Below are positions 56,005-58,956 of a stretch of 64,000 nt of DNA, piece by piece. The stretch's first letter is position 1. Each line of letters starts with the position of its first letter. Source of the DNA: a virus; the IMG/VR virus record IMGVR_UViG_3300025785_000013, positions 19,478 to 83,477 of that record, one strand, 5' to 3'. Below the pieces are notes generated by a model. That model did no database searches. It saw nothing but the letters and a program-made list of their open reading frames with translations, and was not told the DNA's origin. The translations under genes were made by a program, and so were the position numbers.

Positions 56005-58956
56005 ATGCCGACAAGTGAGTTGCTAGCCAAGGCTGTCCAGTATCTCGCTGCCAACTGCGATGGTGCGGTTCAGCAAGATGCCAAGGGGTTCAATGGCCCC
56101 GACAGTCGGTTCGGTAAGGCACTCGCAGCAATCTCCCCTGAAGCGTGGAGCGAAGGTTCCCAGCGTGAAGCGTGGGAGATGCTTTCCAAGTACCGAGGCC
56201 AACTTGCTAGTGGTGGAATTGACTACGACGCTATTCCTGAGCCGTCAAAGGTCAAGGGCCAGAAGTTTGTCCGTGCCGTTGACGTAAAGGCTGGCAAGAT
56301 TCTCGTCTTCCTGCCGTATGGTGATTCGGCGTATCCCAAGGGTGCGCTCAACGCTATGTGGAACCGTGAACTGCGAGGTTGGCAGGTTTCGGTCAGCAAG
56401 TACGGCTCGGTGCTGGACTGGGCGAAGCAGAACAACGTCCCGGTCACGGAGCGAGCCAAGGCGTTGCTGGAAAGTGCGCCCAAGCCAGAACACCCCGACT
56501 ACATCGGTAAGGCAGTATTCCGCAACGGCGAAATCGTGATGGCGTTTGACTACAACCCATCGCTCGTAGATGCTGTGCGCTCAATTCCGGGTCGTAGGTG
56601 GAATGGCGTAGACAAGACGTGGGTTGTCCCCAAGGAGACGGTCAGCATCGTTCGCAAACTGGCGAGCGACTACAACATTGAACTGTCCAAGGGCGTGTTG
56701 GAACTGCCTGAGGTAGAAATCACCACCGGGCCAAAGATTTCGGTTCAAGGCCGGGACTTCGCTATCTCGTTCACCTACGACGCTCAACTGCTCAGCGCAG
56801 TGCGCCAGATGCCGGGTTCGTCGTGGTCACCAGCATTACGGACTTGGGTTGTCCCCATCGAATCCGTAGACGAAGTGCTGAAATTCTCCAAGGAGTTTAA
56901 CGCTGCAATGTCCCCTGAGGCAGTGCGCCTCGTTGACGAAGCCAGCATCGTACAAGAAATCATTGAAGCCTCGGCTGCCAAAGATGCCCAAATCACCATC
57001 AAGGGATTCGGCAGTGAAACACTGCAACTGTTTCCGTTCCAACGTGCCGGGGTTGCCTATGCACTGCGAGCAATGGGATGGGAACACACCAGCGAAGGCG
57101 TGTGGGAGCGCACGAAGAACACCGGTGAAGGTGGGGTCATCGTTGGTGATGAAATGGGCCTCGGCAAGACCTGTCAGGGCCTTGGAATTTTGCAAGCCAC
57201 CCAATCGTTTCCAGCAGTCATTATCTGCCCGGCAAGCCTGAAATTCAACTGGGAGCGTGAAGCCCACAACTGGTTAGGAGAGGCCGGAACCGTCATCCTT
57301 GAAGGAACCACGAAGCCTAATCTCCGCCTGAGCCTGCCTCGCTCGGTCTTTCTTGATGAGCAAGTAAGGTTCCAACTTTTCAGAAAGATACAAGACATCA
57401 AGTTGACGAGCGACGACCCAACCGTATTGAGTTCGCTTCGTAGGGAAGCGCGGCTCCTTGACGAACGTGCGAACATAACTGCGACCACCAAAACTGGAAA
57501 GCCAGTCCATCAAACCCTTGTCAGTGTTGTAAACGACAATAGTCCAAGCCTTGCCGGATTTGGAAATGCTTCCCTCGCCATCAACGATTCCAGCGATGTA
57601 TCCGAGTTGGGCAATATCGTCCGGCAGGTTCAGGGTGCGACCCTCAAATCGCCTATTTCTCGGCTTGGGGTTGGCGAAGTTGTCCAGTCGCTTTTGGAAA
57701 GCAGCGACATTGTGGACGTATCCGGGGAAGTCCTTGACGATTTCGTTGATGTTGTCGCCTCGTTCTCGTCTGGCGACGGCGTTGGCGAGTTCATCAGTGC
57801 TGTATCTAATGCTCATCCCATCATTATAATCTGCAACTACGACATTCTGACCCACTGGGTAGAGCGTTTCACCTCAGTGAAGGGCATCGTGCTAGACGAG
57901 AGCCACTACGTCAAGAACGGCGCAGCCCAGCGTTCCAAGGCAGCCATCAAGTTGTCCGACAAAGTGGTGGAAAACGGCGTTCGTGTTTGCCTGTCCGGTA
58001 CGCCTATCGTCAACCAGCCGTTGGAACTGATGACCCAACTTCGCATCGTTCACCGACTGGATGACTTTGGTGGTGCATCGTCATTCCGCAACGTCTACGG
58101 CAGAGCCAGTGCGAAAAGCCTCGCATCCCTCAATCGCAAACTGCGCTCAATGTGTTATGTCCGGCGCAGGAAGGCTGACGTGCTGACCGAACTGCCACCA
58201 AAGCGTTGGAGCAGCGTGGTGGTGGAAGGCGACGCAGCCGTGATGAAGGAATACAAAAAGGCAGAAGCCGATATTGTGAAATACCTTTCACAACTTGCAA
58301 TGCAGTTTGCCTTGGAATCCGGGGCAAGTTCAGAGGAAGCCCGCAAAGAGGCGTGGATGAAGGCACTCCGAGCCAGAGCAGCAGAGCAACTGGTCGCAAT
58401 CAGCACCCTGAAGCAACTGGCAGCGAAGGCCAAGATGAAGGTCGCCAAGCAGTGGGTAGAAGACTTTCTCGCCAACGACAAGAAACTCGTGGTGTTCGGA
58501 TGGCATCGCACTGTGGTGGATGACATTGCCGTCAACTTCGCCAATGGGGTCAAGATTCAAGGTGGAATCTCGTCAGAGAAGCGTCAAGAAGCCGTTGACC
58601 TTTTCCAAAACTCCGACGAACAAAAAGTCATCGCTTGCAACATCAAAGCAGCCGGAGTGGGACTGACCCTCACGGCAGCGAGCGACGTGCTGTTCATCGA
58701 ACAGGGGTGGACACCGAGCGATATGGAGCAGGGCGCAGACCGTTGCCACCGTATCGGCCAGAAGGACAGCGTGACCGCTTGGCTAATGCTCACGGCAGAC
58801 ACGATTGACGAAGACATCGCAGCCCTGATTCAGCACAAACGCTCCATCGTGGACAGGGCTATTGACGGCACCGACGAAGATGAAGACGAGGAAGGCTCAA
58901 TCGTTGGTGATTTGCTTGTCAGCCTCGCAGAGCGTGGGTTGCAACAGACTAGTTAA
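56005..58956 (+). CDS. SNF2-family annealing helicase, SMARCAL1-like, with antisense insertion (983 aa)
   Basis: Two HARP-like repeats lie at about residues 165-310 (AFDYNPSLVDAVRSIPGRRW...KTWVVP and SFTYDAQLLSAVRQMPGSSW...RTWVVP). The SNF2 ATPase follows: GDEMGLGKT (about 380), CPASLKFNW, DESHY (about 631), SGTPIVNQPLEL, and the motif V-VI block GVGLTLTAASDVLFIEQGW...RCHRIGQ. HARP plus SNF2 is the annealing/fork-remodelling helicase plan. Residues about 437-603 match nothing expected; they correspond to a homing-endonuclease gene on the opposite strand, yet the frame stays open. Its start is leaderless. Confidence 0.85.
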   Translation: MPTSELLAKAVQYLAANCDGAVQQDAKGFNGPDSRFGKALAAISPEAWSEGSQREAWEMLSKYRGQLASGGIDYDAIPEPSKVKGQKFVRAVDVKAGKILVFLPYGDSAYPKGALNAMWNRELRGWQVSVSKYGSVLDWAKQNNVPVTERAKALLESAPKPEHPDYIGKAVFRNGEIVMAFDYNPSLVDAVRSIPGRRWNGVDKTWVVPKETVSIVRKLASDYNIELSKGVLELPEVEITTGPKISVQGRDFAISFTYDAQLLSAVRQMPGSSWSPALRTWVVPIESVDEVLKFSKEFNAAMSPEAVRLVDEASIVQEIIEASAAKDAQITIKGFGSETLQLFPFQRAGVAYALRAMGWEHTSEGVWERTKNTGEGGVIVGDEMGLGKTCQGLGILQATQSFPAVIICPASLKFNWEREAHNWLGEAGTVILEGTTKPNLRLSLPRSVFLDEQVRFQLFRKIQDIKLTSDDPTVLSSLRREARLLDERANITATTKTGKPVHQTLVSVVNDNSPSLAGFGNASLAINDSSDVSELGNIVRQVQGATLKSPISRLGVGEVVQSLLESSDIVDVSGEVLDDFVDVVASFSSGDGVGEFISAVSNAHPIIIICNYDILTHWVERFTSVKGIVLDESHYVKNGAAQRSKAAIKLSDKVVENGVRVCLSGTPIVNQPLELMTQLRIVHRLDDFGGASSFRNVYGRASAKSLASLNRKLRSMCYVRRRKADVLTELPPKRWSSVVVEGDAAVMKEYKKAEADIVKYLSQLAMQFALESGASSEEARKEAWMKALRARAAEQLVAISTLKQLAAKAKMKVAKQWVEDFLANDKKLVVFGWHRTVVDDIAVNFANGVKIQGGISSEKRQEAVDLFQNSDEQKVIACNIKAAGVGLTLTAASDVLFIEQGWTPSDMEQGADRCHRIGQKDSVTAWLMLTADTIDEDIAALIQHKRSIVDRAIDGTDEDEDEEGSIVGDLLVSLAERGLQQTS
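57274..57816 (-). CDS. LAGLIDADG homing endonuclease, antisense within the helicase gene (180 aa)
   Basis: LGYIAGIVDGEGSISKSGKA is a LAGLIDADG motif with the catalytic acidic residue (AGIVDGEG). WTIVVYNTDKGLMDWLSSFG, QYGWVVARQLDVLYLSEKLE and PYLLIKKDRARQAQAE continue the family pattern; the N-terminal 70 residues are a likely DNA-binding helix region (STDELANAVARRERGDNINE). TATAAT on the minus strand (57828-57823) lies six bases before the ATG at 57816. The stop is the complement of a helicase Leu codon TTA. Codons of the two genes are in register on opposite strands. Confidence 0.84.
   Translation of the reverse strand: MSIRYSTDELANAVARRERGDNINEIVKDFPGYVHNVAAFQKRLDNFANPKPRNRRFEGRTLNLPDDIAQLGYIAGIVDGEGSISKSGKAWTIVVYNTDKGLMDWLSSFGGRSYVRTFVKEPRFPTKRTQYGWVVARQLDVLYLSEKLEPYLLIKKDRARQAQAEIRLRGSFKDDGSGLS

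Follow-up and report, generated by a model that had tools for sequence, protein, structure and literature searches.

How can a protein-coding gene carry a homing endonuclease gene (HEG) on its opposite strand and still be open from one end to the other? This question is raised by a helicase gene in a 64,000-nt window, i.e., the whole stretch of DNA analysed here, which belongs to a freshwater phage and was taken from the 83-kb virus record IMGVR_UViG_3300025785_000013. The HEG lies antisense and in mirror register at a loop position of the helicase gene, and we hold it to be probable that the helicase frame is read through it and that the nuclease family was pre-adapted to such a location by a stop-free complement.

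A LAGLIDADG gene on the opposite strand of a phage helicase gene

The features of the locus are the following:

56005-58956, plus strand: SNF2-family DNA helicase ORF, 983 aa (PF00176, E=5e-30; PF00271, E=3e-11; PHROG 62)
57274-57816, minus strand: LAGLIDADG homing endonuclease gene, 180 aa plus TAA (assigned by motif, PHROG and fold)
57571-57603, minus strand: LAGLIDADG motif GYIAGIVDGEG, HEG residues 72-82 (from the translation and the alignment of relatives)
57814-57828, minus strand: TATAATGATGGGATG, with a perfect -10 hexamer six bases ahead of the HEG ATG
57313-57819 (approximate), strand not applicable: inserted stretch, 169 codons in place of about 7 (from the empty-site alignment)
57274-57312 (roughly), strand not applicable: overlap of HEG and helicase, i.e., the last 12 HEG codons plus the stop (codons aligning with empty-site relatives)

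Translation of the helicase ORF yielded a single frame of 983 codons with no stop anywhere, the HEG-bearing stretch included, just as a preliminary description made from the sequence alone had stated. The product has the SNF2 and Helicase_C domains of an SNF2-family helicase in the Pfam search, and its motifs are intact (GDEMGLGKT at residue 381, DESH at 631, SGTP at 664, and QGADRCHRIGQ at 909). Comparison with five homologues gave pn/ps values of about 0.15-0.41 for either side of the insert, whereby synonymous sites are close to saturation. Since these values are low on both sides, the helicase appears to be functional and under purifying selection to the left and right of the insert. In two relatives from the same helicase gene family (L023:3001-6471 and L043:41-2551), a different mobile element occupies a different site: here, intein-like insertions of ~340 aa with a VTHN end are located right behind the Walker A lysine (MGLGK). 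The minus strand of the window further harbors a Pistol self-cleaving ribozyme at 1844-1905 (50.5 bits at a gathering score of 34.5, E=3e-6).

By its motif, its match to PHROG 5046 (E=7.5e-12, residues 71-162), and its fold, the minus-strand ORF is a LAGLIDADG homing endonuclease with predicted activity, which bears out the antisense nuclease gene that had been proposed for this place. The motif residues A75, D79, E81, and G82 are invariant across 38 HEG sequences, and Pfam LAGLIDADG_3 is matched at E=0.0015, under its gathering score. AlphaFold2 modelled the nuclease with a pLDDT of 84, and the top PDB matches of this model are I-CreI structures (E~1e-6). Motif and model together provide the helix with the catalytic acid and the core fold that characterize LAGLIDADG homing endonucleases. 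An N-terminal helical, HTH-like domain precedes the single-motif I-CreI-like core, and the C-terminal tail is disordered in the model, whereby the C-termini of relatives are longer and different. The closest relative with the full architecture of N-terminal helical part and LAGLIDADG core (L096:3947-4483, plus strand) resides in a contig of 68% GC, is mostly intergenic, and has no open mirror frame. Ahead of the HEG ATG, TATAATGATGGG constitutes the sole TATAAT-N6-ATG in the 64 kb (0.04 expected). The hexamer is missing from the empty-site relative L007, and a consensus promoter scan did not include it among its listed sites. It would be compatible with a leaderless transcript from a putative promoter.

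The insertion was found in six fetched contigs, all of one phage lineage, so that mobility of the window copy is a presumption. In two of these contigs (L003 and L004) the HEG start is changed from ATG to ATA (C to T at window position 57814), whereby the helicase frame stays open with a change from His to Tyr; given this loss, the nuclease may be decaying.

Alignment with helicase homologues defined the borders of the insertion. The segment is absent from all 30 aligned homologues; an empty site, as in L007, reads ..HNWLPADKVVKVLTGTTGNLPDADVYIINYDIL.., compared to ..HNWLGEAGTVILEGTTKPNLRL[insert]NAHPIIIICNYDIL.. in the window. Its presence in nuclease-free homologues, which had been named as the observation that would speak against an insertion, was thus not found. 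The net gain is 162 codons (983 aa compared to 821 aa in L007 and L008, the closest complete homologues), in good agreement with the roughly 165 extra residues lacking an SNF2 counterpart that had been described before. The insert comprises helicase residues 437-605 and is flanked by the helicase strands TVILEG and IIICNYD, at a loop of variable length among homologues. An AlphaFold2 model of the 983-aa helicase, which with a pLDDT of 61 is of low confidence and served solely to judge the local order of the insert, predicts residues 433-603 to be disordered (pLDDT<50) between strands at 428-432 and 606-611. The suggestion that the HEG lies between VILEG and IIICNYD holds for the insertion site but not for the gene as a whole, since the HEG exceeds the insert by 12 codons and the stop: its 3' end runs on helicase-homologous codons, and its TAA is the complement of the helicase Leu codon TTA (of NWL), which is TTG in L007. 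No Rfam match at E<=5 was obtained at the insert. A group I intron core (P3-P7-P9) was not found there: the core motifs known from the introns of the relatives do not occur, and outside the HEG the insert has no sequence to hold such a core. Intein splicing domains were not found in the host frame, and the plus-frame segment has no Pfam or PHROG family match. These results agree with the earlier proposal of an insertion without intein or intron.

Conversely, one could suppose that the plus-strand segment represents a genuine domain of the helicase, with the minus-strand ORF as its spurious mirror, as in mirror register either strand resembles a coding one and GC by codon position is similar. 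This is hardly credible, because the minus-strand translation has relatives, a motif, and a fold, whereas the plus-strand segment lacks any family match and is missing from all aligned homologues. Moreover, third positions of the HEG vary most among relatives (e.g., 22/9/60 differences at positions 1/2/3), which marks the nuclease as the conserved product.

The open mirror frame of the window copy

The codons of HEG and helicase mirror each other in register, and the mirror frame has no stop, whereas the other two antisense frames contain 6 and 10 stops; the two codon sets are thus arranged on opposite strands as it had been described. Accordingly, the HEG has no TTA, CTA, or TCA codon. Based on the codon usage of the phage, 2.9 of these antisense-stop codons would be expected (P=0.043), and in 7.2% of 166-codon windows from the phage's own genes the mirror frame is likewise open. 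For the window copy alone, openness is therefore only modestly beyond chance and gives weak evidence of avoidance. Register and matching frames on both sides are rarer still, but survivorship accounts for part of this, since insertions that break a needed gene would go unseen.

It might be, although we regard it as unlikely, that the insertion was simply lucky: only an in-frame, stop-free entry is survivable, no codon selection acted on the window copy, and the avoidance in introns is a separate matter. Openness would then result from survivorship together with a moderately GC-rich codon usage. The GC content of the phage (54.5%), with which a mirror frame of such length is open in 4-7% of cases, and the small difference between 0 and 2.9 codons fit with this view. 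It is countered by the repeatedly open mirror frames of relatives in AT-rich contigs, as the window HEG stems from the same broad family (see the following section).

Polymorphism was compared between the window and five insert-bearing contigs with a complete gene. Outside the HEG there are 4 SNPs, all of them synonymous. Inside, five changes were detected at four sites, which amount to 1 synonymous and 4 amino-acid changes if read in the plus frame, and to 1 synonymous change, 3 amino-acid changes, and 1 loss of the ATG if read as HEG. The insert thus evolves faster than the rest of the gene, as 16% of the gene length contains five of the nine changes (p=0.009; the events are few and the contigs possibly related by site). 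No present constraint on the window insert is visible in either frame, and the plus-frame insert peptide evolves without visible constraint (4 of 5 changes nonsynonymous). The fast change of an apparently unconstrained insert would also suit a helicase that has been inactivated or has become dispensable in this lineage, the open frame being a recent relic. We consider this improbable, as all helicase motifs are intact, none of the SNPs outside the HEG alters an amino acid, and pn/ps is low to the left and right of the insert.

Antisense relatives in group I introns

Two scans with HEG alignments resulted in 121 HEGs distinct at 90% identity. Most of the antisense relatives sit inside apparent group I introns, with the nuclease on the opposite strand. 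The introns have the motifs TCTGATTGACTTGGA..GACAAGGGCCAAG, P7 GACTA/TAGTC, and AGTAACAG near the 3' end, and the consensus fold of their 3' part shows both-side changes in 18 of 28 pairs (16 rows). From these motifs and the covariation, the host elements are read as group I introns, with a core of some 300 nt outside the HEG. Rfam did not detect them, even at E<=10 in L118. Such group I-like introns with an antisense LAGLIDADG gene are present in L097, L111, L117, L118, L131, L150, and about 50 other viral loci. A PHROG search of the exons identified the major head protein (PHROG 1357) as the host gene of several introns, while the Pfam search of the exons gave no match. In L117:3113-4495 (minus strand) and L150:1180-2460 (minus strand), the mirror ORF of the nuclease continues stop-free through the 3' part of the intron into the downstream capsid exon. 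Another intron-free antisense insertion was not evident among the HEG loci that were retrieved. In the Gordonia phage Bibwit (L093:583-1038), the annotation places a LAGLIDADG gene within a DNA methylase gene, which it presents as a join of two pieces.

The relatives bear on the question of whether the window insert itself is a degenerate or unrecognised self-splicing intron, with an accidentally open frame and a spliced helicase mRNA. As their HEGs occupy group I introns that Rfam misses despite motifs and covariation, we gave the negative Rfam results little weight, and the one obtained in the window is weak. Nevertheless, a spliced intron is very improbable here: besides the HEG, the introns of the relatives contain a core of some 300 nt, whereas the window HEG fills the insert, helicase-homologous codons begin within few residues on both flanks, the net gain is divisible by three, and intron motifs are absent.

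For the analysis of codon avoidance, we considered contigs under 45% GC and derived the expectation from neighbouring genes. In 62 distinct antisense intronic HEGs, 121 TTA, CTA, or TCA codons were observed compared to 547 expected (O/E 0.22). The mirror frame is fully open in 26 of the 62 (0.03 expected); no more than one such codon is present in 46. Sense-oriented HEGs are not depleted (116 observed, 116 expected, n=15); L178, counted among these 15, was then reassigned as an antisense intron, which leaves 14 sense and 63 antisense HEGs. The distribution of antisense O/E values is bimodal, with 54 of 63 at or below 0.4 and nine near 1 or above. About ten antisense HEGs show no avoidance. The loci L100, L126, L157, L160, L166, L179, L181, L186, and L187 have the same intron type and nuclease orientation, but their mirror frames contain stops at the expected rate and no start signal. 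Hence, the avoidance of TTA, CTA, and TCA postulated for the window gene is strong in the family but weak in the window copy itself, and the avoiders reside in introns.

In the open genes, CTA makes up 0.7% of CTN and TCA 2.9% of TCN, whereas GTA, CCA, ACA, and GCA account for 13-29% of their boxes (p=2e-67), and TTA:TTG is 24:199 compared to 1345:333 for NAA:NAG (Lys, Gln, Glu; p=6e-95); both p-values are nominal, because codons of related genes are not independent. These contrasts are missing in closed genes and in sense genes. A purine bias of the strand was rejected as sole cause of the depletion, as the depletion of other codons ending in A is much smaller. Only one frame, the mirror frame, shows the avoidance: per 100 codons, the antisense frames of open genes contain 0.43 (mirror frame), 6.1, and 10.3 stops, compared to 4.6-6.9 in every antisense frame of the others. 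That avoidance is kept up, rather than only inherited, we argue mainly from close pairs, in which 49% of fourfold sites differ and yet the mirror frame is still open. Chance openness is ~1e-3 to 1e-8 per gene in the AT-rich contigs, yet the relatives are repeatedly open. As the tree has only about five changes of orientation, the contrast between orientations is not phylogenetically independent, and a test of orientation against openness with independent pairs was without power. Most of the avoiding intron family belongs to one clade; the window HEG has a long branch and a weakly supported position near the antisense group. That it is not firmly within the avoiding clade agrees with the view of a lucky insertion. 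Overall, the data suggest that readability of the complement is under selection in the HEG family, although avoidance in the intronic relatives may serve a purpose other than sparing a host frame.

The mirror frame was also scored for translation signals in 53 open and nine closed introns, whereby the scoring was devised after the pattern had been noticed and ORF length is tied to openness. An ATG, GTG, or TTG near the 5' end is present in the mirror frame of all 53 open introns, compared to 37 and 32 for the other two frames. A Shine-Dalgarno (SD)-like match of at least 4 bases combined with an ORF of 80 codons or more occurs in 32 of 53 open introns (~60%), but never in the other frames nor in the nine closed introns. 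Given the tie of ORF length to openness, the mean SD score is the fairer figure, and it amounts to 4.5 in the mirror frame compared to 2.4 and 2.8 in the others. A conserved second protein encoded by the mirror ORF was rejected, as mirror identity is 48-69% where HEG identity is 86-89%. From the initial idea of overprinting, the preserved host frame thus remains, but not a conserved second protein, since mirror peptides diverge freely.

Proposed explanation and comparison with known systems

On the antisense-insertion reading that we favor, a single-motif LAGLIDADG HEG has inserted antisense and in mirror register at a loop that follows the strand after motif Ia and precedes the strand leading to NYD. 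As TTA, CTA, and TCA codons are missing from the HEG, the helicase frame would read through the HEG complement and gain ~162 extra, probably disordered residues, and neither RNA nor protein splicing would be needed for the helicase to stay usable. A minus-strand promoter of its own, with the TATAAT directly ahead of the ATG, probably drives expression of the nuclease, which may spread by cutting empty alleles. The family would be pre-adapted in that its intronic antisense kin keep the mirror frame stop-free, with a start codon and often a ribosome-binding-like site, and the open frame with start signals implies that translation across the nuclease complement is favored. On the simplest reading, ribosome passage would be what matters, in introns perhaps by avoiding transcriptional polarity and in the window by completing the host protein. 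With slightly more reserve, we think that a large phage LAGLIDADG family is selected for one translatable complementary frame that has a start codon and often a ribosome-binding site but no conserved peptide, and that ribosomes cross the element on the host mRNA, perhaps preventing termination or decay; the same property would let a member sit antisense in a coding gene without intron or intein.

Selfish nucleases in coding genes are tolerated by known routes, namely introns, inteins, splitting of the host gene, and, as recently described, a shifted frame on the same strand. The window adds a candidate route, the opposite strand with a complement kept stop-free, with one intron-free example. 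What the family data indicate is selection for a readable strand, with no conservation of the peptide that it encodes; codon statistics and ribosome profiling offer a direct test of such a constraint. For annotation, it is relevant that such HEGs are masked by the host ORF and that the related introns are missed by Rfam. A literature search in open-access papers retrieved no antisense HEG within an unspliced coding frame and no report of orientation-linked stop avoidance, whereby the nearest case was the same-strand ShiLan insertion treated below.

In its predicted fold and single motif, which implies a homodimer, the window nuclease resembles I-CreI, but it differs by the extra N-terminal helical domain, an identity of only ~20-24%, and not being intron-encoded. 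I-DsqI from Didymium squamulosum is an antisense HEG in a nuclear rDNA group I intron (PMC9548176). It shares with the window HEG the location on the strand opposite to the host transcript; unlike the latter, it is a His-Cys nuclease, located in P9 of a spliced intron within a non-coding rRNA gene, where there is no host frame (PMC9548176). The intron relatives from phages are closer to this arrangement than the window HEG. Aeh1 mobE in nrdA and T4 mobA in gene 60 are HEG insertions in phage enzyme genes (reviewed in PMC2988022). Like the window HEG, they are free-standing HEGs in a phage enzyme gene, and nrdA function is kept unspliced (PMC2988022). Their hosts, however, are split into two polypeptides (PMC2988022), whereas the helicase is not divided into separate frames but continuous, and its HEG is antisense.

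The closest parallel is the ShiLan domain/Pacc40 gp60 insertion, in which an HNH gene uses a different frame on the strand that encodes a phage methylase (Arsenault, Gosselin and Gogarten 2025, PMC11855218). There, too, a homing-type endonuclease lies concealed within a phage gene; the host frame is open, no intein or intron was found, and the host-frame segment is a predicted poorly ordered loop, there in actinobacteriophages (PMC11855218). The window insertion has the corresponding features: absence from homologues, an open host frame, an endonuclease in another frame, and no splicing element. It differs by a LAGLIDADG instead of an HNH nuclease, the opposite strand, the mirror register, the helicase host, and the codon-avoidance test that its relatives permit; the text of PMC11855218 mentions no antisense case. 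Thus, the best reading is that the window insertion works like the ShiLan insertion but is not a member of it by descent, and that it represents an antisense counterpart that is tolerated as a disordered loop.
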